This document shows, in pieces, positions 1 through 22,723 of a stretch of 24,232 nt of DNA. Position numbers and translations under genes: made by a program. This DNA comes from a virus: positions 1 through 24,232 of the IMG/VR virus record IMGVR_UViG_3300031565_000358; one strand, written 5' to 3'. The notes below the pieces were generated by a model. The model was not told the DNA's origin. It worked only from the letters and a program-made list of their open reading frames with translations, and did not search any database. Position 1 is the stretch's first letter; each line of letters starts with the position of its first letter.

Positions 1-231
1 ATTGGAATCTCTTAATGAAATTTTCAATGCATACATAGGGACGCTAAAATAATGACTAATCATTGTTGCTGGGATTGTTCCGCCGCGCACTAACCCGACA
101 ATGTAATTAGGTCGCCAGCCGTCGGCACCGGCACTAATACTCCTACAAATAGAAGAAACTTGAGCCCTTATGTCGTCCCAAGTTAAGACTAATTTGTTTT
201 CAGTTTTAGGTAAGAGTCTACGTCCACCCAT
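1..231 (-). CDS. Phosphoribosyltransferase (partial, N-terminal 77 residues)
   Basis: This reading frame runs off the left edge of the window, so only the first 77 codons are present. It begins MGGRRLLPKTENK and contains WRPNYIVGLVRGGTIPATM, followed by SHYFSVPMYAL and ISLRDS. That is the N-terminal half of a type I phosphoribosyltransferase of the hypoxanthine/xanthine type (COG2236-like), which transfers ribose-5-phosphate from PRPP to a purine base. The PRPP-binding loop would lie beyond the edge. The start at 231 is chosen because a strong Shine-Dalgarno GGAGGA (239-244) sits 7 nt upstream. The gene overlaps the end of the cupin-like gene by 43 nt, which suggests translational coupling. 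Family is clear from sequence; the substrate is not. It could serve purine salvage next to the base-modification genes. Confidence 0.75.
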   Translation of the reverse strand, partial: MGGRRLLPKTENKLVLTWDDIRAQVSSICRSISAGADGWRPNYIVGLVRGGTIPATMISHYFSVPMYALKISLRDSN

Positions 232-680
232 TTTTGCTTCCTCCAATTAGTATGTGTTAAAAACCCCCAATTCCTACTTCGGCGCCACGGAATAAACAAC
301 GTCCAACAATCAGTAACATCGGGGTTTAATTCTATTCTGTGATAAGATGTTGCTGCACAAATTCTAAAATGTCCAGGTCCGCGCCAGCGTCTTTGCTCGC
401 CAATAATTACATCTGTATTAGTTACAATATTCCATGCATATTTAGGTATCCATTCATAATAACCACCTGTTAAAATTACTGCCATATATGGCCACGGATG
501 ATCATGTAAATCGTCGGGATCAGACTTTAGGAATTTGTGCAGGAAGATATTAAATGGAAAGTTTTTTCTGTTCTTTATAAAGACATAATATCGTTCTAAA
601 TATGGCTCAGCACTTTGCCTGTCTAAAACGACACGCTTCCGCCCGTGTTCTTCTAACCAATTTAGAAACCGTCCAAACAT
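189..680 (-). CDS. Cupin-like protein with HDHPW motif
   Basis: A 163-residue protein with the features of a small cupin-like family common in bacteria and phages. A YLERYYVF segment comes near residue 27, then FLHKFLKSDPDDLHDHPWP near residues 46-64 and a glycine turn TGGYYEW. RWRGPGHF and a second histidine in SYHRIEL follow, and then a WTLFIPWRRSRNWGF strand. The HDH and YHR histidines are placed as cupin metal ligands would be. The family is seen mostly as an uncharacterised metal-binding beta-barrel; the substrate is unknown. A Shine-Dalgarno AAGGAA precedes the ATG. The gene overlaps the upstream 112-residue gene by 19 nt and the downstream phosphoribosyltransferase by 43 nt, so it is in one operon with them. 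Confidence 0.65.
   Translation of the reverse strand: MFGRFLNWLEEHGRKRVVLDRQSAEPYLERYYVFIKNRKNFPFNIFLHKFLKSDPDDLHDHPWPYMAVILTGGYYEWIPKYAWNIVTNTDVIIGEQRRWRGPGHFRICAATSYHRIELNPDVTDCWTLFIPWRRSRNWGFLTHTNWRKQKWVDVDSYLKLKTN
239..244 (-). promoter_or_regulatory. Ribosome binding site of the phosphoribosyltransferase gene
   Basis: The minus strand reads GGAGGA, then seven bases, then ATG at 231. The site lies inside the upstream cupin-like coding sequence and decides the start of the edge-truncated gene. Confidence 0.7.
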
Positions 681-1000
681 AAAAATTCCTTTTTGTGCGT
701 CATTTCTAAAACCTTTATTCCGCTTACCTTTATGAAAAACAAAGTGATTAAACCTTTACCTTCATCTGTGTTTGGTACTTTAATTCGAAAATAGTTTATA
801 TCACTGGGCGCAAACGAGAATCCCGAAGCCGCCTCACTAAGCATTCTCTGAGAAAATGTTTCACCACTAATGGTGCTCCTCGATCCGGTCATCCTATAAA
901 TGCTTATTCCTTGATTAACCAATTCTCTTACTTTGTCCCAATTATTAAACATGGGCCCACTAGTAACTGCAATATCAATTAAGATATTACGGTCGTTCAT
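662..1000 (-). CDS. Hypothetical protein, 112 residues
   Basis: I do not recognise this protein. It is a soluble 112-residue sequence with no transmembrane segment, starting MNDRNILIDIAVTSGP. The central part carries TGSRSTISGETFSQRML and the C-terminal half is beta-rich (GLITLFFIKVSGIKVLEM). The ATG forms a TAATG stop/start overlap with the GTP cyclohydrolase gene, with AGGA upstream as a plausible ribosome binding site. The end overlaps the cupin-like gene. The tight coupling argues that it is a real gene of the FolE operon, but the function is unknown. Confidence 0.6.
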   Translation of the reverse strand: MNDRNILIDIAVTSGPMFNNWDKVRELVNQGISIYRMTGSRSTISGETFSQRMLSEAASGFSFAPSDINYFRIKVPNTDEGKGLITLFFIKVSGIKVLEMTHKKEFLCLDGF

Positions 1001-1668
1001 TATTTCATCCTAGCAATAATGTTAAAGAATTCCTGTCTAAGCTCTGGTGTGTCTCGCATTGTGCCTCTAAGCACGCTCGTAGTCATGTCACTTTGGTGTT
1101 CCCTGACACCCCGATGTGTCATGCAAAAATGCTCTGCTTGTATTAGTACAGCAATACCATCAGCTTCGGTTTCAACTTCTATTGCATCGGCTAGTTGCAT
1201 AGTCATCTCTTCCTGAATTTGTGGACGACTTGTAATCCAATCTGCAATTCTATTAAATTTGCTTAGGCCAATTACTTTACGTCCGGGAAATACTCCAACG
1301 TAGGCTTTACCTACGATCGGCATTATATGATGGGCGCATGTACTTCTTATTGTAATAGGTCCGGTTACATACAACTGATCATATTCTAATTCGTTTGGAA
1401 ATGCTGTTATTGCTGGAGGATCTTGATATCGTCCAGCAAAAATTTCAGTAACAAACATCTTAGCGACACGCATTGCAGTTTCTTTAGTATTGTGATCATT
1501 CTTAGTATCAATTACTAATGCCTGTAGTACGCTTTCCATTTCTGTTGCAACTTCCTTAATAAGACGTTCTTCATCCCCAGGAATTAATGCTTCAGAAATA
1601 TTGTCATTACTAAAATAACGTTTCTCTAACCGTTTAAGTCTTGCTCTAATTTTGTCGGATGTCTTCAT
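1000..1668 (-). CDS. folE: GTP cyclohydrolase I
   Basis: FolE converts GTP to 7,8-dihydroneopterin triphosphate, the first step of both folate and 7-deazaguanine (queuosine-type) synthesis. Family motifs are complete: zinc ligands in STCAHHIMPIVGKAYVG (Cys111 and His114, counting from this start) and EHFCMTHRGVREHQS (Cys182). The GLSKFNRIADWITSRPQIQE block lies between them and TTSVLRG follows. At 222 residues it has normal family length. I place the start at 1668 (MKTSDKIRAR), 4 nt after the macro-gene stop; an in-frame ATG at 1704 would add 12 residues and overlap that gene by 32 nt. Neither has a clear Shine-Dalgarno. With DpdA and a QueD-like gene nearby, the likely role is supplying a 7-deazaguanine DNA base rather than folate (inference). 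Confidence 0.93.
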   Translation of the reverse strand: MKTSDKIRARLKRLEKRYFSNDNISEALIPGDEERLIKEVATEMESVLQALVIDTKNDHNTKETAMRVAKMFVTEIFAGRYQDPPAITAFPNELEYDQLYVTGPITIRSTCAHHIMPIVGKAYVGVFPGRKVIGLSKFNRIADWITSRPQIQEEMTMQLADAIEVETEADGIAVLIQAEHFCMTHRGVREHQSDMTTSVLRGTMRDTPELRQEFFNIIARMK

Positions 1669-1672
1669 AGTA

Positions 1673-2245
1673 CTATTTAGAATTTTCCTTGTATGTCCAA
1701 ACATTATTCAACCGTATTTTTTTAATTTGTTGTCCAGTGTTAATATTGGATTGGTATAAGTCACATATCCAAATAGTGTAATCATTAAATTCAGGTTTCC
1801 CTAATAATTTTCTAATCACAGGTTCGACGTCATCAGCCCAGTCTAATCCTCCTAAACCACAACCAATCTTTGGTATGTAAATCTTACGTTGAAGATCGGT
1901 ATCATTAACAGCTAGAAAGACTTCGCATATACAGTCTTCAATTGCTTGTATATTAGCGTATACTGCCTTATTGTTTCCATATGCTAATTCAACTGGCCGT
2001 CCATAATTTTCTTGTGTGATAGCATTTACAATGAACAAATTTTCAGTTGCTTGAAACCAGATATTAGTACCGACTTCGAGTCCCTCTTCAAAAAATTCTC
2101 TTTTGTACGCCATATATGCGCCAGGCCACCGTTTTTTAACAGCCAACGCAGCGCCTGATCCCATTACACCTTGAGCATTGCATCCATGAATAACAACGCC
2201 TCGGGTTACTTCTGTTATGTCTTTTTTAATAAAAACCATTGACAT
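1673..2245 (-). CDS. Macro-domain protein (ADP-ribose binding/hydrolase)
   Basis: A 190-residue single macro domain. The ADP-ribose-binding loop 1 is HGCNAQGVMGSGAALAVKK (residues 20-38, with Asn23), and the second loop is IPKIGCGLGGLDW (124-136). The form resembles the ALC1/TARG1/DarG class, in which an Asn, a Lys just after the glycine loop and an acidic residue after GCGLxxL act in removing ADP-ribose; Lys37-38 and Asp135 are in suitable places. Such enzymes de-ADP-ribosylate proteins or nucleic acids, or process ADP-ribose-1''-phosphate. The gene overlaps the glycosyltransferase stop by 20 nt and lies just before folE. There is no clear Shine-Dalgarno; the second ATG (2239) is an alternative start. 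The target is unknown; see findings for a counter-defence reading. Confidence 0.8.
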   Translation of the reverse strand: MSMVFIKKDITEVTRGVVIHGCNAQGVMGSGAALAVKKRWPGAYMAYKREFFEEGLEVGTNIWFQATENLFIVNAITQENYGRPVELAYGNNKAVYANIQAIEDCICEVFLAVNDTDLQRKIYIPKIGCGLGGLDWADDVEPVIRKLLGKPEFNDYTIWICDLYQSNINTGQQIKKIRLNNVWTYKENSK

Positions 2246-3326
2246 GATATTTGATCACATTTGTTAAAGTGTTAGCCGAAAAATAAAACTTATCTAAATA
2301 TTCTTTCGTTAAATTTAGATTAGTTTGCGTAATAAGACTGCCATAGTTGGTCATTAATTTTCTAATTTTCGCAACTAGCTTATCTTTATGCTTTGTGTAT
2401 AATTCAAAACTACTAGTCCATTCAGTTTCATAAACAAATTCATTCTTAATGTACATTTCTTTATAGCTTAAACGCGAAGGGACTAATGGAATTGCATTTG
2501 CTAATACACCCTCGTAACAACCAATACCTAATGTTTCTTGTAGGTTTGCAGAAAACACAATTTTAGCTTGTCTCAGTAATGCGTGGTATTCGTCTTTAGT
2601 AAGAGGCTGGTCCTGACAAACAATGAATTCATATTCAGGCAGTGCTTCCTTTAAGTCTAAAAATATGTCTACTTGTTTTTCCGGCGCCAGTCTGTGCGGG
2701 AATAATATTAGATCTCGTTTCTGAGATGCCTGAGGACGTATTGCTGCTTCTAAATATTCAAACGGCCAACCTGATCTAAGTATTTTAGGGAATCGTCCGG
2801 GGAACTGTCCATTAATTTCTAACGGGGTCTTTCCAAATAGGTTTTTACAAAACATTTCGATATGGAAATTAGTTGCAAAATAATTAGCGTCGATTGCATA
2901 GAACAACGATTTCTCAAAATGTCTTACCCACGGCTTATCGCCAATGAGTCTACCTAAAAAGTCAGCTGGGTCATAGCTGCCCGCATGCCACAACGCATGT
3001 ATGCCTACAGGAATTTGTAACAATTCGCTCATGTACTTCAAGTTGATAATCCCGGGGTGCCATGCATCTGTAAATAGAAATTGGTCTCCCGCTTTGATAT
3101 ATCCATCGCAAAACATTCGGCTAAAAGCTTCGACTTGTGATGCTTTGTAAATGTTCGTGCCACCGAAATTTAAGAAGGCCCCGGGAGTAGTCGCCGCCGG
3201 AATATCCACGCGGCCCTCAATTACACCTGTGGGTATTCCTGCATCATCAAACAGCTTAGGAAGATGTGTCTTCCACTGTCCGGTGTATCTGGTTTCGACA
3301 GCTTCGAGGTCAACTAAGTGTAACAT
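2226..3326 (-). CDS. GT-B fold glycosyltransferase (GT4-like)
   Basis: A 366-residue soluble protein. The C-terminal half has the nucleotide-sugar half of a GT-B enzyme: LILFPHRLAPEKQVDIFLDL (residues 206-225), EYEFIVCQ, KIVFSANLQETLGIGCYEG with an E-x7-E motif (Glu264/Glu272), then ANAIPLVPSRLSYKEMY. This is the usual arrangement of family 4 retaining glycosyltransferases. The N-terminal half (NFGGTNIYKASQVEAFSR, LFTDAWHPGIINLKYMSELL) would bind the acceptor. Start and upstream stop overlap as TAATG; there is no strong Shine-Dalgarno. The acceptor could be phage DNA bases, a virion protein or host glycan; the sequence does not decide. Confidence 0.7.
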   Translation of the reverse strand: MLHLVDLEAVETRYTGQWKTHLPKLFDDAGIPTGVIEGRVDIPAATTPGAFLNFGGTNIYKASQVEAFSRMFCDGYIKAGDQFLFTDAWHPGIINLKYMSELLQIPVGIHALWHAGSYDPADFLGRLIGDKPWVRHFEKSLFYAIDANYFATNFHIEMFCKNLFGKTPLEINGQFPGRFPKILRSGWPFEYLEAAIRPQASQKRDLILFPHRLAPEKQVDIFLDLKEALPEYEFIVCQDQPLTKDEYHALLRQAKIVFSANLQETLGIGCYEGVLANAIPLVPSRLSYKEMYIKNEFVYETEWTSSFELYTKHKDKLVAKIRKLMTNYGSLITQTNLNLTKEYLDKFYFSANTLTNVIKYHVNGFY

Positions 3327-3526
3327 TAGCGATTGCGCTTTTTCTTATTGCTTACCTCTTTGACGTACTTCTTCCAATTAGAATTCTTGTTGTTATAGAG
3401 GTCTCCTTGGTTGAAGGGAAGAAGCTCAAACCTACAAAAGTTTAGGTAGTCTTCTAAATCATTAAAGACTTTAGAAACCTCGGGCTTCATGGTTAAGTAC
3501 TTCTTAAGCCAAACTGGATTAGACAT
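3326..3526 (-). CDS. Small conserved phage-type protein, 66 residues
   Basis: A 66-residue protein starting MSNPVWLKKYL, with KVFNDLEDYLNFCRFELLPF in the middle and a lysine/arginine-rich tail (KKKRNR). It resembles, as far as I can judge from memory, short uncharacterised proteins of marine T4-like phages with an LxFCRxxLLPFN core. Function unknown. A Shine-Dalgarno AAGGAA precedes the ATG, the gap to the QueD-like gene is 9 nt and the stop overlaps the next start, so it is co-transcribed with the modification genes. Confidence 0.6.
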   Translation of the reverse strand: MSNPVWLKKYLTMKPEVSKVFNDLEDYLNFCRFELLPFNQGDLYNNKNSNWKKYVKEVSNKKKRNR

Positions 3527-3535
3527 GGTTGTTCC

Positions 3536-3982
3536 TTAGTGTGGTTTAGTAAAATCGTATTTTGTAAAACTACCGTTTTCTCTGTCTTCACTAATCTCTA
3601 TCCAAGTATTTCGTTTTGGATATTGATCAGAAATAGCAACGAAAAGGTCATCAGATAGCATCTCACAGCTCTTATTATTAAGTTCTAGTGTGCCGTCATT
3701 ATATTGCCTCTCTAACCAGCGTTTAAATTGAATAAATTCTAAATCTCTGTCGTCGTGAAAAACCTGGATCCATACTTTGAAATGAAATATATGTCTGTGT
3801 GGATAACCTAAAAATTTTACGTCCTCTAAATTGGGATCATCTAACGCAGCGGGATATTTATGAATGCCCTCTTTTTGGAAGGTAACCCAAATCATTTTGG
3901 GAGCGTTCTCCCGAATATTATTACGAACTCCTGCAATATATTCGGCATATTGTTGTTCAGGACTAAAGTCTCTATCACTCAT
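3536..3982 (-). CDS. QueD-like T-fold protein (6-carboxytetrahydropterin synthase-like, divergent)
   Basis: A 148-residue protein that can be laid over QueD/PTPS enzymes. His41 (FQKEGIHKYP) lies where the first zinc histidine occurs, and His62/His64 (GYPHRHIFHFKV) match the HGH pair. DDRDLEFIQFKRWL matches the 'x-DF-x-LK' strand-helix, SCEMLSDDLFVAI the PTxENLA helix, and IEISEDRENGSF the strand with the pterin-anchoring Glu (Glu132). QueD makes 6-carboxytetrahydropterin from the FolE product. The Cys before HxH and the LDHxxLN motif of canonical QueD are missing, so activity is uncertain. The first 29 residues are extra; Met30 (start 3895) would give normal QueD length. A 5-bp GGGAG/CTCCC hairpin (3899-3912) lies just upstream of that ATG. 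The call is my own alignment by eye. Confidence 0.5.
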   Translation of the reverse strand: MSDRDFSPEQQYAEYIAGVRNNIRENAPKMIWVTFQKEGIHKYPAALDDPNLEDVKFLGYPHRHIFHFKVWIQVFHDDRDLEFIQFKRWLERQYNDGTLELNNKSCEMLSDDLFVAISDQYPKRNTWIEISEDRENGSFTKYDFTKPH

Positions 3983-3989
3983 GCAGTCT

Positions 3990-4018
3990 ATTGTATATTA
4001 AAGAGTTTTACTTGTCAA
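3990..4018 (-). promoter_or_regulatory. Sigma70-type promoter of the QueD-like gene
   Basis: The minus strand reads TTGACA (4013-4018), a 17-nt spacer, then TACAAT (3990-3995). This is near the host sigma70 consensus. The ATG at 3982 starts 7 nt after the -10 box, so transcripts from this promoter would carry almost no leader. No Shine-Dalgarno precedes that ATG. Confidence 0.6.
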
Positions 4019-4364
4019 GTGTTTGATTAGGAGTGGAATTAATCATATAATCTTCGATGATTTCGCATATCTGATCCAAAAATACATCTTTGGATATATA
4101 TTTCCCAGTGTATTGACACCAAATGTTTAAAATTTCGTCCATTTCTTCATTTTTTTGGTTATTTTGGGAATTTAATTGTTTCTCATATTGTACAAGGGCA
4201 TTCTTTGCTATTGTACGCATGTAATCGCGTTCTCCATTGCTTCCAAACGCCGAACCATAAGTTAATTCCTTCCCATCAAAATACTTCCCGGACATTGGAA
4301 ATTCATTAAACCATTCTTCAATTCTACGCAATGCTTTTATTAACGTTCTATTTGGATCAGACAT
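4008..4364 (-). CDS. Hypothetical protein, 118 residues
   Basis: Unrecognised soluble protein of 118 residues between dpdA and the QueD-like gene. It starts MSDPNRTLIKALRRIEEWFNEF, has SAFGSNGERDYMRTIAKNALVQYEKQ in the middle, and ends with a predicted helix (KDVFLDQICEIIEDYM). It is helical and moderately charged, with no recognisable catalytic motif. Shine-Dalgarno GGAG lies 8 nt before the ATG; the gap from the dpdA stop is 2 nt. Its position inside the modification cluster makes a link to that pathway possible, but there is no sequence evidence for it. Confidence 0.6.
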   Translation of the reverse strand: MSDPNRTLIKALRRIEEWFNEFPMSGKYFDGKELTYGSAFGSNGERDYMRTIAKNALVQYEKQLNSQNNQKNEEMDEILNIWCQYTGKYISKDVFLDQICEIIEDYMINSTPNQTLDK

Positions 4365-4366
4365 AG

Positions 4367-5845
4367 TTATTTCTCCACTTCGAATAAGTTATTAAACATA
4401 GTCATAGCGTTTACTGCTTTCTTTCCGCTAAAACCTCTTGTGCCAACAAGACGCATCCAAAATTTACTGTGGTCATCTAGGAATTGTAATGCTTTGTCCT
4501 TGTCGTCAATACGGATTGCTTCAGTAATTAAGTCTCCCATAGTGTTCCGATCAATATCATCTTCAATTAACATATTTGGATAGATATTGGTGTCGTATAA
4601 TTCATTGGCTAATTTCACAGCCATTAAATGTATCCAAACATTGTGCGCCATTAATATTGCATAACTGAAACTATCCCAGCTTGTATTACCTTCCTTACCT
4701 ATTTTATTTAGATCACCTTCTTTGTAGATACAAATATCTTTAATAAGCAAATCTTCTGTTATAGGGCTATCAATAAAATGTTTAATTTTGGTTTTTTTAC
4801 GCCTCATATCTTCTAGTAATGCTTTACTAAATTTTCTTTTATCGGTCGCATACTTCTTATCATCGGGGCCAAATTCCATTCTGTAAATCCACTTTTCGCG
4901 TTCAGTTAGTTCTATGTCAGTATAAATTCTACCATTAGCAGTTGCTAAGAATGGACTAGCACAGTCGAAACTAATTGTAAAGTTTTCGTTGTGATACTTT
5001 CTAACTGCTTTTTGTATATCAGTTAATGCCAGTGCCCACTCTAGTCTGCTTGTACCTAAAAAGTGCATCCAATCATGTGTTCCTTTCTCTAGCAGCCCGT
5101 CGAATTTTAGTGTTATAACTCGTTTTAGTGCTAAATGCAAGTCGCACATATTTTGTCCGCCCATAGCCCAGCCGTTAAAATGTGTGGACTTAAACTTTTT
5201 GGGATCACAGTAGTGTTTCATTTCTTTGTACCAATTGTCTGCTTCGGCATGATTCTCGCCTTGCAGTACGTTTAGAAATTTACAGCTACCAGAGCCGTTT
5301 TTCATAAAATAATCGTTATTAATCTTTGTTGCGTTTACAGCATCCTCAAATGTTGCTATCTTAGTTTTTTTCACAGCTTCCGGCCGCCAACGTGTCCACA
5401 CAGGAATATCTAGTCCCATTCCGTAGTCTGCAATACCTTCTAACCAACTTAGAACTAGTTTTCTCTGCTTACTAGATTTAGGACAATTAACATCACGCCA
5501 GTCACCTTCCCACACACCCTTGCCGATTTGGAAACCTCCACTGTCTCCTAACAATAAGGAACTAGACTTGTCTCTACTCCTTATCATATCCTCTTTGGGT
5601 TCGTGTTTGTCTAAATTTAATTGCGCATGTCCTGCACTGTATAGCGCATACGGATAATAAAATGTAGCTTTGTCTTTGTTAAGAAAATTTATGCTCTCCA
5701 TACCGTTTTTAAGACACTTGGGAATCCTTTTCTCAGGAACGTATTCCTCAAATCGTTGTTTGCCTATAAATGTAGCATAGAAACTGCTAATTGCAGGCAA
5801 AAAGATGGCATGATTCTTATTAAACGTAGTAAATTCGTTTTCCAT
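4367..5845 (-). CDS. dpdA: DpdA-type DNA guanine transglycosylase (7-deazaguanine insertion into DNA)
   Basis: A 492-residue TGT-fold enzyme. DSGGFQIGKG (101-110) is the TGT base-binding motif with its general-acid Asp. GMGLDIPVW (142-150) and FLNVLQGENHAEADNW (190-205) match the QG loop. GWAMGGQN (225-232) matches the GxAIGGL loop, HFLGTSRLEWA (261-271) follows, and SFDCASPFLATANGR (292-306) matches FDCVxPTRxGR, giving Asp294 as the nucleophile. The CxCxxC zinc site of bacterial tRNA-TGT is not seen, as expected for DpdA rather than Tgt. DpdA proteins exchange guanine in DNA for preQ0 or a related 7-deazaguanine, which protects phage DNA from restriction. FolE and a QueD-like gene nearby support this. 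The ATG overlaps the clamp stop (TAATG). A tRNA target is less likely but not excluded. Confidence 0.82.
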   Translation of the reverse strand: MENEFTTFNKNHAIFLPAISSFYATFIGKQRFEEYVPEKRIPKCLKNGMESINFLNKDKATFYYPYALYSAGHAQLNLDKHEPKEDMIRSRDKSSSLLLGDSGGFQIGKGVWEGDWRDVNCPKSSKQRKLVLSWLEGIADYGMGLDIPVWTRWRPEAVKKTKIATFEDAVNATKINNDYFMKNGSGSCKFLNVLQGENHAEADNWYKEMKHYCDPKKFKSTHFNGWAMGGQNMCDLHLALKRVITLKFDGLLEKGTHDWMHFLGTSRLEWALALTDIQKAVRKYHNENFTISFDCASPFLATANGRIYTDIELTEREKWIYRMEFGPDDKKYATDKRKFSKALLEDMRRKKTKIKHFIDSPITEDLLIKDICIYKEGDLNKIGKEGNTSWDSFSYAILMAHNVWIHLMAVKLANELYDTNIYPNMLIEDDIDRNTMGDLITEAIRIDDKDKALQFLDDHSKFWMRLVGTRGFSGKKAVNAMTMFNNLFEVEK

Positions 5846-6579
5846 TACTTGCTTTGTGCAGGGAGGATATATTCATACAATGCTGTTCCACTATCAACGG
5901 TGATCAGCAACGCTCCTTGGTTACTAAATTGCATTACCTTGTCGCCAACTAAGTTTAAAATACAAATAACTGGCGCGACTGGCCATGCAAATCCTTTGTT
6001 TAGTGTTCCAGATACTTTCGGTTCGAATACAAAGTTACCAGCATAGCTGCTAACATCACCAAAGTGAAATACTAAGTTCTTGTTTTCAGTTTTTGCAGTA
6101 AACAACGGTTCGTCGTTGTTTGCCTGACTTTGAAATTTAAATTTGTTGATGCTGGCAATACTCGGAGCAACGTCAACATCCCATTCTACGCCTTTAAATT
6201 TAACCGACTTTAGTTTTTCGTTAATGACCTCAGTGCTCATAAATCGATAATCGTTTTTAAAGTCGCCACCCTTGTTAGCAAAATGTAAGCAAACTGGAAT
6301 TGTGTCCTCACCTTTCTTCTGTGTTTCTACGTTAATAACCGAATCCTCGTCATACTCCGGAATACCCAATATAACATTTAACTTTGCTAAGTTAGGAATA
6401 CCAAACGTACCCATAAATTCTGAGGCTGGCTTTCTAAATTTCCCGTTAATAACAACAGAATTATCCTCTGCTATTGCAAAGAATTTTGTTTCTTTTTTGT
6501 CGCCAACAAGCTTAACGTATTGAACATTCCCCAATGCATTAATGTGGTCAACTAGATCCTGCAGATAGTCTTTAATCAT
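5845..6579 (-). CDS. 45: Sliding clamp DNA polymerase accessory protein (gp45-like)
   Basis: A 244-residue homolog of the T4 gp45 trimeric clamp, which tethers the polymerase and, in T4, also activates late transcription. Recognisable segments are FRKPASEFMGTFGIPNLAKLNVILGIPEY (residues ~48-76 in two parts), RFMSTEVINEKLKSV, and the C-terminal strands GALLITVDSGTALYEYILP. The start at 6579 (MIKDYLQD) is preferred over 6585 because AGGAGA (6587-6592) is 7 nt from the former and only 1 nt from the latter. It has its own sigma70-type promoter and lies two genes downstream of the polymerase. Clamp-loader genes (gp44/gp62) are not in the window. If late promoters here work as in T4, this clamp is part of their activation (inference). 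Confidence 0.85.
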   Translation of the reverse strand: MIKDYLQDLVDHINALGNVQYVKLVGDKKETKFFAIAEDNSVVINGKFRKPASEFMGTFGIPNLAKLNVILGIPEYDEDSVINVETQKKGEDTIPVCLHFANKGGDFKNDYRFMSTEVINEKLKSVKFKGVEWDVDVAPSIASINKFKFQSQANNDEPLFTAKTENKNLVFHFGDVSSYAGNFVFEPKVSGTLNKGFAWPVAPVICILNLVGDKVMQFSNQGALLITVDSGTALYEYILPAQSK

Positions 6580-6586
6580 ATTCATA

Positions 6587-6628: not shown

Positions 6629-7576
6629 CTGTCCTACCATTTTAATTGAACCAACTGTTTTCCTATTTTTGACTGTTCTTAAGTTACCTGATTTTTTGAG
6701 CACCATCACCGTATGTTGATTGAATGTTTGCACGTCATCAATTATAAATGGAATTTGTTCTTTGCTGGGTTTTAGAATGTATTCTAACAAGTAATTTTTC
6801 GTTATGCAATTTAATTGGGGAGTATCACCGCTGTCTATCCATTTACAAAACATATCGTATCCAGCTTCACTTAGTACATCGACGAATGAAAGAAGTAGAA
6901 TTCCGCCCGGCCTCAACAATTTGAAACATTGATTTAGATAATTAAGTAGATGCATTGTGGCTATGACACTAAAAATTTGTGTAGTTAGTATTAGATTAAA
7001 TTGTCCCTGTGGTAGTTTAGCTGATACTTCTAAAAATCTACCTACAACTTCGTAGGGTTGTAGGGATTTAACAAATCCAGTATTTGAATAAGTGTCGATT
7101 TGACTTAATTCATTGGGTTTGGTTATTACATAATGCGGATCGGCCGGAGACATGGATGTAACTAACGTTTTGCTGTGGCTGTCTAGATTCAAAACTGGAT
7201 ACCGATGATCAACTTTGTGTTCAATAACCGAAACAATATGATTGAGAGCCCCAGCATCAAATTCAAGTGCATTATTAACCCATTCAGTATAAAATGGAAA
7301 CTGATTATCAGTATTAATATTGTATGTAGTTCTTGCTCTTGTAAGTTGTTCCTCTACCCTACCAACGTAAGTCATTTCCGCCTTCGATAATGTAGCGTCT
7401 AACTCTTGTAGATTTTGTAACAGGCGCTCACTCGGCTTATCATCGTTGCTTAGTATTTCAGCAAATGCAATCAAGTCAGCTAAGTTAGCACTGTTAATTT
7501 GTAGCTTTTGTCTATAGTCAGAAATTTCCTTAATAAACCTAGGTAATTGGTTAAATGGTATTTCAGTTAATTTCAT
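6626..7576 (-). CDS. Class I SAM-dependent methyltransferase-like protein
   Basis: A 316-residue protein. The N-terminal 100 residues are helical (KEISDYRQKLQINSANLADL, SERLLQNLQELDATLSKAEM). The C-terminal half looks like a Rossmann methyltransferase: YPVLNLDSHSKTLVTSM, then QFNLILTTQIFSVIATMHLLNYLNQCFKLLRPGGILLLSFVDVLSEAG, which matches the motif IV strand, helix and the LRPGG-LL strand of class I enzymes. A clear glycine-rich motif I is not seen, so SAM binding is uncertain. The ATG overlaps the polymerase stop (ATGA) with GAGGAG upstream. Its placement between polymerase and clamp points to a role on DNA or nucleotides, possibly in base modification; this is inference. Confidence 0.5.
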   Translation of the reverse strand: MKLTEIPFNQLPRFIKEISDYRQKLQINSANLADLIAFAEILSNDDKPSERLLQNLQELDATLSKAEMTYVGRVEEQLTRARTTYNINTDNQFPFYTEWVNNALEFDAGALNHIVSVIEHKVDHRYPVLNLDSHSKTLVTSMSPADPHYVITKPNELSQIDTYSNTGFVKSLQPYEVVGRFLEVSAKLPQGQFNLILTTQIFSVIATMHLLNYLNQCFKLLRPGGILLLSFVDVLSEAGYDMFCKWIDSGDTPQLNCITKNYLLEYILKPSKEQIPFIIDDVQTFNQHTVMVLKKSGNLRTVKNRKTVGSIKMVGQ

Positions 7577-10284
7577 TCGTCGCTCTCCTCTATGCTAAAC
7601 AGTGAATTGAATGTACTCTTAATCTGTGTTGACTTAGAGAGTTCCCAATCAAGCACTCCTAATAAGTTATTTACTTTTTGATCTACAATAGTATCTTCCA
7701 TGTCAGTGTCGTCAAACGGGAGTTCTTTGAACCAACCCGGTAAATGTGTTTCGTCAGTCGGATGTGCGACGCTAGTATATCCCATCGGATTAGGTCTTAC
7801 TTTGCAAACAATTACTTTCATTCCATCTACTATATTCATACTATGGTTATCACAGTTCATCTTCTTTAGTGTATTCCAGTTCATTGCTGCCCTTACGTGG
7901 CCCGGAAGATTTGCCTTACCTAACCGCGTTTCTTCTTTAGTATACTTAGTTAGATTGTTAACTCGCTTAGGCGTTCCTTTCTCCCAACCAGGTCGCTCAG
8001 TAAATTCTAATTTAAACTTCTTCACCATTTCGATAATTTGATTCTTGTCTGGATTCTTTAATACCTCAACTAATAACGTGCTTAAGAAGTCCTGTACAAT
8101 TTTAGGAGTATCTGACCGTTTAAGATCTAACCCCATAGCTTTAATTTTGCCTACACTAGGAATTACATTCTTCTTTTTAGCTTCCTGTACAGTTAGTAAA
8201 TCAAGCCTAGTTCCTTCCTGATCAAATATCACTACGCCATAGCGTTTCTTTTTAATGAACAGTCCTCTGGATGCTATTAATTCTCGGCCCCCGCCGATTA
8301 ATAGTCCCAACGTATCCGGACAATGGAAGCTATTCTTCATGCAATCTTTAAAGCTTTCGTTAACGCTTTCTGCAAGTTGATCATAAATCTCAACGCAGAT
8401 GTCCTTGCTCCATTCCATCTTCTTAGCTGCAACATCGTCCTTAATGATCGGCCAAAGACTAAAGTAACAACTATCAGTATCTCCATATATAATAGTCTGT
8501 CCACTGTGATCGTTAATTCCGGTCATTAATTCGTTTAAATATCCAGCCATATGTTTAGTAATAACGCGGCCCGTTAATGTAGTACTCTGTCCAATGCGTT
8601 CATCAAAGAACCTACAGCCAGGATTTAAAATTGCGCCGTATAAACTATTTAGATTAATCTTTTTAACGTGCTGTCGCTTGTCCCAAAATACAATATCCTC
8701 AGCGGATTTTGCAGTCTTAACATTTTTCTGTAATTCTTGTCGTTCCTTATACCATTTACCTAATAGCCCAGGAATAATTCCTTCCTTCGTGTGCGTAAAG
8801 ATTGTTCCGTTTGCACTTAGTGTCCAATCGTTATTATTGTCAAACACTAACCTCCAAACATCGGCGGCTGAGTGCGAAGTTATTTCTCCATCTGCCCAGT
8901 CAATTGTAATTTCAGTGCCTACTTCTTGTTTCATTACTGCTATATATTCTAAGCTACCAAATAATCCTTCCCATGCCGCAGCAAATGTCAATCCGGAAGC
9001 CATCTTTCCTTGTATGTGCCGATCAGTCATTATAGGTCTTAGCTGGGCAACAATAGTTTCCGTAGACATGTTTAAGGCTCGAATTGCGCTAGGGTATAGA
9101 CTTTTAATGTCTATGGCTCCAATCCATTCATGTATGCCCTTTTTAGGAGTTGCAACATACGCGCCCGCCGCCTTGCCGTCGTCCTCGCCCTCAATTCGTT
9201 GTGTTTTCCTATTAGGAACAACGTATCCTAAGGAATGTGCTTCGTTAATAATTGCTTGTTCAGTCACTGCTACCACACCCATTACGGTAGGTAATAGCAC
9301 TGTGTTATCATGTGCAAGTTCGTTAGCCAAGTCCATAAAGCGTAATTTTTGATCTAGCTTATGAAGAATGATTGCATCCTGCCGGTTATAGTCAATAAAT
9401 TTCTGGAAGTCTCTATTGTACAATTGATCTAACGTTCCTTCATATGCAACCTTACGCTCATTTAATTCGTGCTCACCAATTGCATCCAAACTCCAGGAGT
9501 GGCGTTCTTCATATGTAAATTTCCTGTAGAGTTGCATGTAATCTAAGTGTACACGGCCGACTAAATCAAACGTAAGGTTTTCCGATCCAAAACGTTTAAA
9601 CATTCTTTTGCGAGGATACTCATTCCAGAGACAAAAACGTCTAGTATCGTCTTTGCTCATTATTTTATTAACCCTCATTACAGTATAAGGAATATCATAT
9701 CCCTCAGAGTTCCAGCCGCTTAATACATCTGCATCTTCGATTAGCTTTAAAAATGTATCTAGCAGGGCCGTCTCGTCTGCAAAAATATAAGTATCATCAA
9801 ACTTAGCAGCAATAGCTTCTGCTTCCTCTAGTGTTAATGTTGGAGGAGGTTTAGCAAGGGTTATTAGCTGCCCAGTCCAGTCTAAATAAAGACTGATTGC
9901 TGTAATCGGATTAAATGGATCATCTGGGGAAGAATATCCACGTTCCTGATCGAAATCAACCTCAATATCGAAAAAGATTGTTTGAAGTTTTGGGGCGCCA
10001 GCATTTGAATAGTTTTCTTCTAAACATCTAAATATAGGATTGATGTCGCTCTCCCATAGCTTCTTATTGTTGTGTATCTTTTGTTCCTTCCTAAACTCCT
10101 TAGAATTTTTGGAACTAAAACGCGCAACAGGATTACCGAAGATGGTTTGATGTTGGCCGTTCGGATCGTCATAATAGAAGACATACTTCGCGGGGAACTC
10201 TCTATATTCCCTGCCGTTTTTTGTCCTCTCTACTACGAAGATTTTATCGGTATCTCGTTTGAGATACGCATCAACATAACTCAT
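7573..10284 (-). CDS. 43: DNA polymerase family B (gp43-like)
   Basis: A 903-residue replicative polymerase with intact 3'-5' exonuclease and polymerase domains. Exo I is FFDIEVD (residues 104-110, Asp106/Glu108), Exo II is GWNSEGYDIPY (190-200) and Exo III is YNRQDAIIL (299-307). Polymerase motif A is DIKSLYPSAI (392-401), motif B is KKINLNSLYG (541-550) and motif C is YGDTDS (600-605). The length is close to T4 gp43 (898). The last residues (STFNSLFSIEESDE) hold a short hydrophobic clamp-binding-type peptide. The gene starts 7 nt after the DsbA-like stop, without a strong Shine-Dalgarno, which suggests coupling. It acts with the gp45-like clamp encoded downstream. Confidence 0.97.
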   Translation of the reverse strand: MSYVDAYLKRDTDKIFVVERTKNGREYREFPAKYVFYYDDPNGQHQTIFGNPVARFSSKNSKEFRKEQKIHNNKKLWESDINPIFRCLEENYSNAGAPKLQTIFFDIEVDFDQERGYSSPDDPFNPITAISLYLDWTGQLITLAKPPPTLTLEEAEAIAAKFDDTYIFADETALLDTFLKLIEDADVLSGWNSEGYDIPYTVMRVNKIMSKDDTRRFCLWNEYPRKRMFKRFGSENLTFDLVGRVHLDYMQLYRKFTYEERHSWSLDAIGEHELNERKVAYEGTLDQLYNRDFQKFIDYNRQDAIILHKLDQKLRFMDLANELAHDNTVLLPTVMGVVAVTEQAIINEAHSLGYVVPNRKTQRIEGEDDGKAAGAYVATPKKGIHEWIGAIDIKSLYPSAIRALNMSTETIVAQLRPIMTDRHIQGKMASGLTFAAAWEGLFGSLEYIAVMKQEVGTEITIDWADGEITSHSAADVWRLVFDNNNDWTLSANGTIFTHTKEGIIPGLLGKWYKERQELQKNVKTAKSAEDIVFWDKRQHVKKINLNSLYGAILNPGCRFFDERIGQSTTLTGRVITKHMAGYLNELMTGINDHSGQTIIYGDTDSCYFSLWPIIKDDVAAKKMEWSKDICVEIYDQLAESVNESFKDCMKNSFHCPDTLGLLIGGGRELIASRGLFIKKKRYGVVIFDQEGTRLDLLTVQEAKKKNVIPSVGKIKAMGLDLKRSDTPKIVQDFLSTLLVEVLKNPDKNQIIEMVKKFKLEFTERPGWEKGTPKRVNNLTKYTKEETRLGKANLPGHVRAAMNWNTLKKMNCDNHSMNIVDGMKVIVCKVRPNPMGYTSVAHPTDETHLPGWFKELPFDDTDMEDTIVDQKVNNLLGVLDWELSKSTQIKSTFNSLFSIEESDE

Positions 10285-10623: not shown

Positions 10624-11616
10624 ATGCTGACCATAAATATTGACATGCCCAATCAGCTAACATTCAACAACCATTTCAAATTTGGTTACAATGGAGAATG
10701 GTTTAACCAGCGACAATCTCCGGACGATAAATTTATTGCCAAATTTGGACGGGCTGAATCTATACTTACATTTAGTGATGCAGGGGTTGATGCCAGTCGA
10801 AAAATTGCTATGTCTACCGACAGACCAATTTATGTCTGTACCAGTGGCGGGATCGACAGTGAGATAGTAGTTAAGTTTTTCCTTAAAGCAAAGGTCAATT
10901 TCACTGTTGCTATGCTTGAATTCAAAAATAAGGAAAATGAACATGATTTGAAATATGCATATAAATTGTGTGATGCATTGGGCTTACGATATAAAAAATT
11001 CGTACTTGATGTTGACAATTGGTACAATTCTCCTGAGGCTATTGAGATTGCGAGAAGGTCAACTTCTTGTTATATTACTCAGCTTTGCCAAAGTTGGTTG
11101 CTAGCACAAATTAATGAAATAGGTGGATTTCCGGTTATGGGTACTGGTGACCCAGGAATTTATCGATCCGTTCCATCGGACTTTAGTTACACAAGATATG
11201 ACTTTACTACGCACAATGCACGATTAGAAGATGATTGGTATTTGCACGTTGGGGAAGATATATCTTGTTTTGCTGGAGCGTTTTTAAAAACTGCCAACTT
11301 AGTTGGCGCACCATTTTTCTATTGTTACACACCAGAGTTGATGTACAGCTACTTAACTGATAATGTTATCGAGCAGCTTGTTAGCGATAAAACTAAGTTT
11401 AGGTTTACAACTAAAGAGAAATATGCAATTTACTCAAAGTATTTTGGATTAGAGGAGCGTCCCAAGTACACTGGGACCGAGCATCTTAAATGTTTAGAGA
11501 AAAGCAATGCAATGCTTGAACTAATTAATCCACACCCTACGCATATAGCTAGATACAGATATAGATACTACGATTTACTTTCCCTTCTTAACCCGGCCCC
11601 TGAAAGTAGCCGGTAG
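10624..11616 (+). CDS. PP-loop ATP pyrophosphatase (adenine nucleotide alpha hydrolase-like)
   Basis: The only plus-strand gene, 330 residues. The PP-loop is YVCTSGGIDSEIVVKFF (SGGIDS at 74-79), followed by VAMLEF and NEHDLKYAYKLCDALGLRYK, the order seen in N-type ATP pyrophosphatases (QueC, NAD synthetase, asparagine synthetase C-domain). The family adenylates a carboxyl or similar group before amination or thiolation. The C-terminal Cys zinc site of QueC is absent, so I do not call it QueC. Later segments include FPVMGTGDPGIYRS and PFFYCYTPELMYSYL. There is no Shine-Dalgarno at 10624; ATG 10645 is an alternative start. The last 42 nt overlap the convergent minus-strand gene. A role in base or amino acid amidation is plausible but unproven. 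Confidence 0.7.
   Translation: MLTINIDMPNQLTFNNHFKFGYNGEWFNQRQSPDDKFIAKFGRAESILTFSDAGVDASRKIAMSTDRPIYVCTSGGIDSEIVVKFFLKAKVNFTVAMLEFKNKENEHDLKYAYKLCDALGLRYKKFVLDVDNWYNSPEAIEIARRSTSCYITQLCQSWLLAQINEIGGFPVMGTGDPGIYRSVPSDFSYTRYDFTTHNARLEDDWYLHVGEDISCFAGAFLKTANLVGAPFFYCYTPELMYSYLTDNVIEQLVSDKTKFRFTTKEKYAIYSKYFGLEERPKYTGTEHLKCLEKSNAMLELINPHPTHIARYRYRYYDLLSLLNPAPESSR
10632..10639 (+). promoter_or_regulatory. Possible late promoter motif CATAAATA
   Basis: CATAAATA fits the NATAAATA late motif. With T4-like spacing the start site falls on the A of ATG 10645, predicting a leaderless mRNA for the shorter form of the PP-loop gene. It is a single 8-base match in AT-rich DNA. Confidence 0.3.
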
Positions 11617-17476: not shown

Positions 17477-17482
17477 TTTATT
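17475..17482 (-). promoter_or_regulatory. Late promoter motif AATAAATA
   Basis: AATAAATA on the minus strand fits NATAAATA and contains the TAA stop (17478-17480) of the glycosyltransferase gene. The predicted start site lies within the 22-bp palindrome, upstream of ATG 17454. Confidence 0.45.
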
Positions 17483-18377
17483 CTTTTCTAGGTTGTTTGT
17501 CCGTTTTGAAGTTCGGGGTCGTATCTAATAGCTTTGTAACCTTACCAGCATCCACTGTTACGTTAGAAACAGGTACTCCGGCATTAGCGGCATTTGCGGC
17601 CTGTGCTGCATTAAATTTCTCAGCTAAATCTTTGTGGTGTTTGATTGCGTCTTCACCTAAGAATGAATATGTGCCTTGGTGATCTAGGATAACTTCCTTA
17701 TGCACCCATACCTTATTGCCCATTTTACGCCATCTATAGCAAAATGTCCAATCCTCACTTAGATAGTTTTTGTGTTCGTCGATCATAGTGTCAAACAAGT
17801 CATACATGTGTGGCTCGTACTGCTTACCGATACCAATGTTGTCATTGTATTTTAGTTCTGGCATCTTTGCAATCATATCTGTTATTACGTGACGTTCGAT
17901 TAACATGAATCCAGTCCCTGCCGTACTAACTTCTTCCAACGGACCTTCTCTAGAAGGATTTGGAATTGAATTAATAACAAATCTAGGCGGAACACACTTC
18001 ATTGGATATAAGCCACAAATCAAATCCTTCTTAGTTTGTAGCATTAGCGGAATATACTCTGGCTTCCATCTAATGTCTGCATCAATAAACATTAGGTGGG
18101 TGGCGCTTTCGTTAAAAAGGAACTTTGATACTAAGTTATTTCGACCTCTGGGGATTAAACTTTCGTTTACCATTGTGTCTACTGTCCAATTTATTCCCCA
18201 TTTTTGGGCAACTACAGCAAACTTCAATAAACTCATAAAACAAGCTTCAAAAATTTGCCCGCCGTAACATGGGATAGCTATGTAAACGTGAACCTGTTTA
18301 TTTGCTAGCGTTGGTTGTGGTACTGAAGGATTAATTGATGGATCTAACAGCGGACTTACTTTTGATTCTTTCTTCAT
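17478..18377 (-). CDS. GT-A fold glycosyltransferase (GT2-like)
   Basis: A 299-residue protein with a GT-A nucleotide-sugar domain: VHVYIAIPCYGGQIFEACF (29-47), ESLIPRGRNNLVSKFL (72-87), THLMFIDADIRWKPEYIP (93-110, with the metal-binding DxD as Asp99-Ala-Asp101), LICGLYPMK, TAGTGFMLIERHV, and EDWTFCYRWRKMGNKVWVH near 208-226. The family moves a sugar from a nucleotide-sugar to an acceptor. The last 50 residues (AAQAANAANAGVPVSNVTV) are a low-complexity tail. Shine-Dalgarno AAAGGAA precedes the ATG. Similar enzymes are frequent in T4-like phages; the acceptor is unknown. Confidence 0.72.
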   Translation of the reverse strand: MKKESKVSPLLDPSINPSVPQPTLANKQVHVYIAIPCYGGQIFEACFMSLLKFAVVAQKWGINWTVDTMVNESLIPRGRNNLVSKFLFNESATHLMFIDADIRWKPEYIPLMLQTKKDLICGLYPMKCVPPRFVINSIPNPSREGPLEEVSTAGTGFMLIERHVITDMIAKMPELKYNDNIGIGKQYEPHMYDLFDTMIDEHKNYLSEDWTFCYRWRKMGNKVWVHKEVILDHQGTYSFLGEDAIKHHKDLAEKFNAAQAANAANAGVPVSNVTVDAGKVTKLLDTTPNFKTDKQPRKE

Positions 18378-18404: not shown

Positions 18405-19163
18405 TTAATCCTTTTGTACTAACGTATAAATTTTCCACTTCCCGCCAACAACAAGTTGAAACCATGACAATGTGGTGTCATCTTTTATTCTTATCCGCAT
18501 ACCCTCTATCCAATCGCCGCCGATTAGGTTTGATTCTACCGGGTCAGTTTTGTGTTTAGTATGTCGGGTGGCTTCGCAGTCACAGTTTGTAATGAAATTT
18601 CTAAGAGCTTGAATTTCGAAACGTGACCAAAGTTGCCAATGTGAATGAGCAAGATATTTGTAATCACGGGTATTTTTAACAAGCAGAGTATTTGGTTCAA
18701 TGGCCGCTGCCCCAGGTTCTGTAATAGAAATTATCCTGCCCTTAAAGATGCTTGGCAGTTTCTTTAAGAGAGTTAAACATTCTTCTTCATTTTCAAAAAA
18801 GCAATGTACTGTAGATCTATAAATGGATGTTTTACAATTACTAACTAATCCTAACAATCGCGCCAAATTAATAATAGTATCATATTCTTCTTTCGAGTCA
18901 CCGTACGCAGCGGAAAACTTTTGTCTTATGCTTTTTCTGAAATCGATCATGCTTTCAATTTCTGCCAGACAGTTAGGCAGACTGAAGTCATTGCCAAATC
19001 GTCTGCGCCTATACGAGCCAAGCAGAAACGCGCCGTGCACCTGAAATGAAATCCTATACAAATACTTGTTGAATAAAAGTCGGTTAGTACTCTTAACTTC
19101 AAATAATTGTAGAGTCTTCTGTCGAAGTATTTTTCTCGCTTTCTGTATGAATGGTGTCGTCAT
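18405..19163 (-). CDS. Hypothetical protein, 252 residues
   Basis: I do not recognise this protein. It is 252 residues, basic at the N-terminus (IQKARKILRQKTLQLF), with RLLFNKYLYRISFQVHGAFL, a patch SYRRRRFG, YDTIINLARLLGLVSNCKTSIYRS, and a C-terminal segment GDWIEGMRIRIKDDTTLSWFQLVVGGKWKIYTLV (in two parts). The arginine patches would suit nucleic acid binding, but no motif confirms this. The ATG at 19163 overlaps the ClpA coding end by 65 nt and has no Shine-Dalgarno; no better start is visible close to the ClpA stop. The frame is certainly coding, but the exact start is uncertain. Confidence 0.5.
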   Translation of the reverse strand: MTTPFIQKARKILRQKTLQLFEVKSTNRLLFNKYLYRISFQVHGAFLLGSYRRRRFGNDFSLPNCLAEIESMIDFRKSIRQKFSAAYGDSKEEYDTIINLARLLGLVSNCKTSIYRSTVHCFFENEEECLTLLKKLPSIFKGRIISITEPGAAAIEPNTLLVKNTRDYKYLAHSHWQLWSRFEIQALRNFITNCDCEATRHTKHKTDPVESNLIGGDWIEGMRIRIKDDTTLSWFQLVVGGKWKIYTLVQKD

Positions 19164-21381: not shown

Positions 21382-21866
21382 TCTATTATCTCCGATGGGG
21401 TTGATTCAACTATTGCTTGCTGCTGTCGTTTATACTGATCTGCACGCCAAAGCATTGTAATTCCAAACAAATGATCATACTCGTGTTGAAAACACCTAGC
21501 AGCTAGTCCGTGTAATAGTTCTTCTTTTATTTCTCCTGAAGCATTGAAATATTGAACTGTAACACTAGTCGACCTGTGTACAGGAGCCGTACGATCTGGA
21601 TAACTCAAACAGCCTTCTTCTTCTACGGCTGTTTGCTCTGAAAATTCTTTTATGCTAGGATTAAAAACATTACGACGCACACCAGCAACTTCCATTACAA
21701 ATACTTGTTCTCTGAGACCGACTTGGTTTGCTGCTAACCCAATGCCTCCATTCTTTTTCATAAATTTAAACATGTTATCAGCTACAATTTTATTAGCAAC
21801 AGGGAATTTAAAGCTGATAGGCTTGGTTGTGAACGCTAATGTTTTAGATGTTAGTTTCATTGTCAT
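21378..21866 (-). CDS. def: Peptide deformylase
   Basis: Removes the formyl group from the N-terminal Met of new proteins. All three family motifs are present: GIGLAANQ (41-48), EGCLSYP (84-90, with the metal-binding Cys) and QHEYDH (127-132, with two metal His and the catalytic Glu). At 162 residues it matches bacterial Def length without the long tail, as in known phage deformylases of cyanophages. Two starts are possible, 21866 (MTMKLTS) and 21860 (MKLTS). The late motif just upstream predicts a start site between them, favouring 21860 for the late mRNA. No Shine-Dalgarno is seen. It sits 5 nt after dnaJ and overlaps clpA. Confidence 0.95.
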   Translation of the reverse strand: MTMKLTSKTLAFTTKPISFKFPVANKIVADNMFKFMKKNGGIGLAANQVGLREQVFVMEVAGVRRNVFNPSIKEFSEQTAVEEEGCLSYPDRTAPVHRSTSVTVQYFNASGEIKEELLHGLAARCFQHEYDHLFGITMLWRADQYKRQQQAIVESTPSEIIE

Positions 21867-21868
21867 AA

Positions 21869-21876
21869 TATTTATT
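21869..21876 (-). promoter_or_regulatory. Late promoter motif AATAAATA before def
   Basis: AATAAATA on the minus strand includes the TAA stop (21872-21874) of the dnaJ-like gene. T4-like spacing puts the start near 21863, three bases before ATG 21860. Confidence 0.45.
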
Positions 21877-22723
21877 CATCCTTGAATTGTGGGGAGTTTA
21901 TTTCTTTGATCATTGCCAGTTGTTTTTCGTTTAAATCCTTAGGTATTGTAATCTGCACCAGCAATTTCAGATCTCCTCGGTGTTTATCAGATACTTTAAC
22001 GCCTTTACCTTTTAATGAAAGCCCAGTACCAAATTGTGTGCCCACCGGAATCATTACATCGTATGTGCTGTCGTCATAATTTTTAAATTGAACTATAGAT
22101 CCAGTTAATGCATCCCACACCGAAATATCAATTTTAGAACAAAGTACATTAGATTGCTCTAACCAGAAGCCGTTTGGCATTGAAATTCTAAATTCAACAA
22201 GTAAATCTCCTGTCGGAATATTGTTAATTGCATCATCTCCTAAGCCGGGATATTTTGTCCTCGGGGGATTGCTAAGTGATTTGGGATAATGTACTTCTAT
22301 TTGTTTCTCTGTATGTTTGCTGGTCTTATAAGATAGAACTTTTGTTTTCGGTTCTAATAACTCTTTCAGTTCAATTTGAATAGTTAATAAAATATCTTTA
22401 TTTTTAGGTTTATGTCTAGATACTTTTTCCTCAGTAAATCGCCTAAATAACGCGTCCATCATTTCATCTCGAAGGTCTCCAAAATTTGCGCCATGTATTT
22501 GATAAGAACCAGAGCTAGTCCCGTGCTTCCGTTGCATATCGTACTTGGATTTCTTACTGATGTCGCTCAATGTATCGTGTGCTTCATTAATTTCCTTGAA
22601 CTTTGTTTCGTTGCCCGTTTCTCTATCTGGATGATGCGTCATAGCCAATTTTCGGTAAGCTTTTTTGATGTCTTCAGCCGTAGCGGTATCAGACAAACCC
22701 AAAATTTGGTAATAGTCCTTCAT
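21872..22723 (-). CDS. DnaJ/CbpA-type J-domain co-chaperone
   Basis: A 283-residue protein. The J domain spans residues 1-68 ([20 protein letters not shown], with HPD at 31-33, then [13 protein letters not shown]), which stimulates host DnaK ATPase. It lacks the Gly/Phe-rich region and the CxxCxGxG zinc fingers, so it is of CbpA/class II type. C-terminal substrate-binding segments follow: [20 protein letters not shown] (~112-131), [23 protein letters not shown], and [25 protein letters not shown] (in two parts). It has its own sigma70-type promoter and no Shine-Dalgarno. It heads the proteostasis block with def and clpA, with the end 5 nt before def. Confidence 0.9.

Follow-up and report, generated by a model that had tools for sequence, protein, structure and literature searches.

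Which DNA modification is specified by a phage gene cluster that encodes FolE, a QueD-like protein and a DpdA-type transglycosylase within 5 kb? We addressed this question for IMG/VR virus record IMGVR_UViG_3300031565_000358, whose entire 24,232 bases are the window analysed here, so that any sequence beyond position 1 is cut off. An earlier note on this DNA had read positions 1000-5845 as a 7-deazaguanine DNA modification module. This proposal was upheld, as a DpdA-type enzyme occurs together with FolE and adjoins a DNA polymerase and a sliding clamp. The earlier reading had, however, overlooked a glycosyltransferase (GT) as a fixed member of the module. In our view the region is rather probably a QueC-less, glycosyltransferase-bearing phage 7-deazaguanine DNA hypermodification cassette acting by the full mechanism outlined below. 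Its genes lie on the minus strand at the positions first assigned to them, and four of them carry the argument:

1000..1704, minus strand: FolE, GTP cyclohydrolase I (PF01227, E 2.6e-49)
2226..3326, minus strand: predicted GT-B fold, GT4-type retaining glycosyltransferase, fixed partner of DpdA (model, fold matches, co-occurrence)
3536..3982, minus strand: T-fold protein of phrog_17812, related to QueD but missing its catalytic Cys (profile, motif alignment)
4367..5845, minus strand: 492-aa predicted DNA guanine transglycosylase of the DpdA type (TGT fold, invariant catalytic motifs, relatives)

Loci for comparison were gathered from IMG/VR partly through DpdA matches and partly through GT matches. 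Many of the sampled phages are akin, and 123 distinct DpdA proteins occur across the loci. Where two counts are given for a gene, they refer to two sets of 80 loci.

A DpdA-type transglycosylase of a separate sequence group

The product of 4367-5845 carries the motifs of TGT enzymes in their order, namely DSGGFQ (D101-Q106), LD.P (D146, P148), LQGE (Q195, G196), GWAMGG (G229, G230) and FDCASP (D294). All of the 59 diverse relatives compared share D101, Q106, D146, Q195, G196, G229, D294 and P298, and the motif set is therefore not due to chance. The CxCxxC zinc site of tRNA-TGT was found neither in this protein nor in the family consensus. Direct scans against Pfam, PHROGs and NCBIfam were empty or gave scores too low to use, and phmmer with this DpdA alone yielded nothing useful. 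A PDB profile search was equally uninformative for the GT, and structure prediction was required for both proteins. An AlphaFold model built from 59 window and IMG/VR sequences reached a predicted local distance difference test (pLDDT) score of 90.2 and showed the TGT-type (beta/alpha)8 barrel. Its best fold match was TGT 2ash (Z 18.9, root-mean-square deviation 4.5 over 305 residues), and the 50 matches listed in the two fold searches were all TGTs. The earlier call of a DpdA-type enzyme is thus well founded, and we predict from motifs and model that the protein is a DpdA-type transglycosylase belonging to a sequence group apart from the 9g DpdA and from DpdA2.

Near relatives were found in at least 599 IMG/VR stretches, with an identity of about 60% among 80 of them; in GenBank, 13 isolate phages encode such a protein. 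One group connected by phmmer comprises the window enzyme, those of the PA5oct-like phages, Phosso and Vibrio 2.275.O, and several proteins of bacterial islands. A second group, unconnected to the first, comprises VH7D DpdA2, ACP17, X1 and BUCT-ZZ01, and both the 9g DpdA and E. coli TGT fall outside these two groups. Between the window enzyme and DpdA1 of 9g there was no phmmer link and an hhalign match of 12 columns only; for VH7D DpdA2, a pairwise phmmer link was likewise absent and the profile-profile E-value was 0.15.

DpdA inserts 7-deazaguanine into DNA (PMC6884629). Homology to DpdA and the fixed linkage to polymerase and clamp genes suggest that DNA would also be the target here:

5845..6585, minus strand: sliding-clamp-like gene, directly upstream of DpdA (63/63 loci with upstream room)
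7573..10284, minus strand: T4-type family B DNA polymerase, upstream context (phrog_262, E 1.7e-187; 62/63 loci)

The counterpart of the clamp-like gene is annotated as PCNA in vB_Pa-PAC2.

A pathway without QueC and a T-fold protein that is not QueD

The assignment of FolE was borne out by PF01227, whose score of 167.5 bits exceeds the cut-off of 27. In relatives, QueE (phrog_2076, E 2e-51) is encoded a few genes downstream of FolE, and it was present in 69 of the 80 loci having more than 9.5 kb downstream. The earlier note had pointed to the canonical route to preQ0, with QueE and QueC possibly located outside the window or taken from the host. This holds for QueE; QueC, by contrast, is genuinely missing, as no match above cut-off was obtained in large or complete relatives (256, 270, 212, 286 and 469 kb; complete ones range from 156 to 469 kb), including PA5oct-like phages and Phosso, and the canonical route is not supported. 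QueF was not found in the relatives tested either, except in Vibrio 2.275.O.

Two kinds of PP-loop protein were considered as QueC and rejected. The PP-loop protein of the window (10624-11616) matched asparagine synthase better than QueC (7.6e-6 versus 0.004) and occurred in 1 of 84 loci, and in large relatives the weak matches to the QueC C-terminus come from different PP-loop proteins, roughly 206-252 aa long. Separately, radical SAM clusters adjoin a weakly QueC-like PP-loop protein of about 250 aa with a Zn motif in three large IMG/VR relatives (L087, L088 and L185), possibly representing another modification pathway.

The gene at 3536-3982 had been read as QueD-like. A remote relationship to QueD and the T-fold is real, but the protein is not QueD itself. 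A PTPS match was weak (E 0.013) and obtained with 1 of 24 relatives, and a profile-profile comparison with QueD gave E 7.7e-5 (single comparison) at a probability of 34%, which is weak taken alone; a PDB profile search with the family returned nothing useful. The residues H41, H62 and H64, a zinc-type His triad, and E132, the anchoring Glu, are invariant in 30 of 30 relatives, as in the T-fold superfamily, and a C-E pair is also invariant across these 30 aligned sequences. The catalytic Cys of QueD (C-x3-HGH/Y, four residues before HxH) occurs in 0 of 30 relatives versus 7 of 7 phage QueD sequences. Moreover, a separate true QueD gene is present in PA5oct-like phages, ACP17, BUCT-ZZ01, RHph_I1_18 and phiST, and 7 of the 10 large relatives from IMG/VR have one too. 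With the catalytic Cys missing and a true QueD encoded elsewhere, the T-fold protein is not a CPH4 synthase.

Of 13 isolate phage records, ten encode the T-fold protein but lack QueC, and the other three show the reverse (Fisher P 0.0035, indicative only, as these phages are not independent and were picked through matches to these very genes). This mutual exclusion suggests that the pathway probably stops at 7-carboxy-7-deazaguanine (CDG) and that the T-fold protein takes over there; in the simplest reading, it would process CDG at the point where QueC does so in other phages.

A GT4 glycosyltransferase accompanies DpdA

The model of the 2226-3326 product (pLDDT 89) showed a GT4-type GT-B fold; its matches included 6kih (Z 25.2), BshA and MshA. 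E264-x7-E272, R212 and K217 are invariant in 72 of 72 sequences, and the enzyme is therefore predicted to be active. A PDB profile search with the GT family gave nothing useful. The family of tRNA-queuosine mannosyltransferase (QTMAN) was not found among the Pfam matches of 23 GT4 members; a stretch of the GT (FPHR..PEK; QETLG..YEG...P.RLSY.EM) may resemble QTMAN.

DpdA, the T-fold gene and GT4 occurred together in every one of the 103 aquatic IMG/VR loci whose sequence extends 5.5 kb or more beyond DpdA, a linkage that is to be read as conservation inside a broad clade because many of these phages are related. The gene order DpdA, T-fold, GT4 was kept in 100 of these loci, and in the locus set derived from the GT alone, DpdA was present in 58 of 58. 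Among isolate phages, GT4 lies beside the T-fold gene, DpdA or both in PA5oct-like phages, ACP17, X1 and BUCT-ZZ01; the last three stand outside the clade, and the partner there is an enzyme of the DpdA2 group. The earlier note had suggested that unassigned genes and two glycosyltransferases could add further steps. GT4 is a fixed member of the module; the PP-loop protein, a 316-aa protein and the second GT (17478-18377) are not.

GT4 was also found beside DpdA on bacterial contigs of Azospirillum, a Rhizobiales isolate, Shimia, Sulfitobacter, Thalassobius and Pseudooctadecabacter. FolE, QueD, QueE and the T-fold gene were absent from these chromosomal islands, and a plasmid search with the island GT gave no match. 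Such islands are uncommon, being represented by 2 of the 394 family members that were sampled. The occurrence of GT4 with DpdA2 enzymes and in bacterial islands is independent support for the pairing of DpdA and GT4.

In Shimia, a Vut_1-type transporter gene adjoins the pair (E 4e-5, below the Pfam cut-off). In the chromosome of Shimia ponticola (L195:1387-3294), the neighbours of the GT4-DpdA island are a gene resembling Lamassu LmuB (PADLOC E 4e-163) and genes of integrase type, which makes this a possible defence island. The islands also hold a protein of about 586 aa of no recognised family and a second GT4-like protein (L195:10555-12312, L195:12275-13531), the latter resembling one in cyanophage BUCT-ZZ01.

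Proposed mechanism and alternative explanations

Based on the computed folds, catalytic residues, gene linkage and absence of QueC, we propose the following pathway, in which four elements are inferred: the substrate of the T-fold protein, DNA as target, the added sugar and the position that bears it. FolE, QueD and QueE would convert GTP to CDG, with QueD provided from elsewhere in the phage genome or by the host and QueE encoded just past the contig end. The QueD-derived T-fold protein would then act on CDG instead of QueC, most likely by taking off or modifying its carboxylate group. The DpdA-type enzyme would swap guanine in phage DNA for the 7-deazaguanine by the covalent mechanism of TGT enzymes, with D294 as putative nucleophile. 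GT4 would use a nucleotide sugar as donor and most likely glycosylate the 7-deazaguanine, either before or after insertion, a step to which genetic association points. The purpose would probably be evasion of host restriction.

Several observations weigh against this proposal. QueD and QueE do not lie within the window. Vibrio 2.275.O, with a DpdA of the same group, has neither GT4 nor the T-fold gene but encodes QueC and QueF, and GT4 is therefore not needed for DpdA itself. A divergent GT homologue, that of PhiXhv-12, has no FolE, QueE, T-fold gene or DpdA of these groups nearby. Finally, plain 7-deazaguanine arising from decarboxylation of CDG offers no obvious group at C7 for a sugar, which implies that the product of the T-fold protein differs or that the attachment is unusual.

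The lack of such a handle also favours an explanation that we consider unlikely, yet the most serious of the alternatives: the cassette would insert plain CDG or 7-deazaguanine, and a co-inherited GT4 would glycosylate another target, such as another modified base or the host or phage surface. Phage GT4 enzymes often have other roles, and phiST, RHph_I1_18, Ahp1, Bakedbeans and D479 carry the T-fold gene and no GT4. Mere co-inheritance is, however, difficult to reconcile with the complete linkage in the aquatic loci and with the recurrence of the DpdA-GT4 pair both with two sequence-unrelated DpdA groups and in islands devoid of the phage operon. We regard as improbable that a tRNA is modified in a queuosine-like manner, with the GT acting like tRNA-queuosine mannosyltransferase; the TGT fold and the possibly QTMAN-like stretch of the GT would suit this function, whereas the missing zinc site, the constant association with polymerase and clamp and the absence of QueA, QueG and QueH among the enzymes named in annotated isolate loci argue against it. 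Least probable by our estimate is the formation of a pterin glycoside by FolE, the T-fold protein and GT4 without any role for DNA, comparable to the glucosylation of tetrahydrobiopterin in cyanobacteria. The respective glucosyltransferase (5zes) was indeed among the fold matches of the GT, but ranked 17th amid many GT4 folds; furthermore, QueE and DpdA are conserved alongside GT4, and the bacterial islands carry GT4 and DpdA with no FolE.

We therefore retain the glycosylated 7-deazaguanine cassette as the preferred explanation. As to its extension, namely that widespread aquatic phages carry sugar-decorated 7-deazaguanine DNA made by a QueC-less pathway, a distinct DpdA and a dedicated GT4, and that the DpdA-GT4 pair moved into bacterial islands, our confidence is evenly balanced. 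If true, this would extend DNA hypermodification by a class found in aquatic phages that are abundant and for the most part uncultured, provide an enzyme family for labelling purines in DNA and offer a likely reason why such DNA would withstand restriction. It would also be accessible in laboratory isolates, since the same cassette occurs in PA5oct-group phages of PAO1 and in ACP17, BUCT-ZZ01 and X1, and as a rule of thumb, a T-fold gene instead of QueC would mark a CDG-derived modification.

Other genes of the cassette and its neighbourhood

Further genes accompany the cassette to varying degrees:

1..246, minus strand: phosphoribosyltransferase-like gene, cut by the contig end (49/80 and 48/80 loci)
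189..680, minus strand: cupin-like protein, phrog_4786, frequent in the cassette (37/80 and 47/80 loci)
3326..3526, minus strand: small conserved protein of 66 aa between the T-fold and GT4 genes (homologues in 61/80 and 74/80 loci)
4008..4364, minus strand: lineage-specific protein of 118 aa (no homologue in the 84 loci compared)

In several relatives QueE follows the phosphoribosyltransferase-like gene, a full-length relative of which matches phrog_8995. The slot of the 118-aa protein between DpdA and the T-fold gene is occupied in 102 of 103 relatives with room by an unrelated protein, c2, of about 171-177 aa (e.g. L006:11640-12155). It has no Pfam or PHROGs match, and other open reading frames replace it in the window and in locus L002.

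Genes of nucleotide-sugar metabolism, encoding an epimerase, a phosphomannomutase and a DegT-like aminotransferase, were found near the cassettes of relatives. As they are lineage-restricted, no sugar was assigned: the epimerase occurred in 54/80 loci of the first set but in 1 of the second, and the phosphomannomutase in 18/80 and 0, respectively. In one subclade, a phosphomannomutase (PF03332, E 2e-22) and an NAD-dependent epimerase are encoded between polymerase and clamp (L008:7606-8313 and similar), hinting at a supply of sugar nucleotides.

A macro-domain protein encoded at 1673-2245 on the minus strand adjoins FolE and matches DarG (NCBIfam E 2.1e-15, PADLOC DarG 1.2e-17); it is a possible counter to DarT-type toxins. 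In Rhizobium phage RHph_I1_18, an Appr-1-p processing gene lies beside the T-fold gene. The PP-loop/asparagine-synthase-like ATPase is encoded by the only sizeable plus-strand gene of the window, located between operons, and was found in one other locus. At 19099-22723 on the minus strand, genes for a ClpA-like ATPase, a peptide deformylase and a DnaJ-like protein in a row form a phage-encoded protein-quality group.

Comparison with known systems

The literature searched, mostly without subscription papers and key 2023-2024 reviews, yielded no report that assigns a GT to a DpdA system or describes glycosylated 7-deazaguanine in DNA. The sugar-bearing bases known from phage DNA are hydroxymethylated pyrimidines, and to our knowledge no sugar on 7-deazaguanine has been described. 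The alpha- and beta-glucosyltransferases of T4, which act on hydroxymethylcytosine (hmC), share the concept that a sugar on a modified DNA base blocks restriction; they decorate a pyrimidine, whereas a purine analogue is proposed here.

CDG-type phage modifications with FolE, QueD and QueE and without QueC were reportedly described by Cui et al. in 2023 (NAR), who are said to have proposed DpdL as a CDG decarboxylase. The window type would share this gene content, with GT4 in addition, and Cellulophaga phage phiST also encodes the T-fold protein. In Enterobacteria phage 9g (dG+, DpdA1, Gat-QueC), the genes for DNA polymerase, clamp, DpdA, FolE and QueD likewise stand in a row. It differs by the presence of QueC, the absence of T-fold and GT4 genes and a DpdA1 with no detectable sequence link to the window enzyme.

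A system for the synthesis and incorporation of deazaguanine has been noted earlier in jumbo phage PA5oct (PMC7824862), and no mention of GT4 as a part of it was found in the text searched. PA5oct-like phages share the DpdA group, GT4, the T-fold protein, QueE and the linkage to polymerase and clamp with the window type but encode FolE and a true QueD at another site. The DpdA2 systems of Schizotequatrovirus (Vibrio phages nt-1, VH7D and KVP40; PMC6884629, PMC8056088) likewise belong to relatives of T4 and pair an enzyme of the TGT type with 7-deazaguanine synthesis from phage genes. They possess FolE, QueD, QueE, QueC and QueF, and VH7D DpdA2 is not linked to the window DpdA by phmmer; the window type, in contrast, dispenses with QueC and QueF and carries the T-fold protein and GT4 instead.

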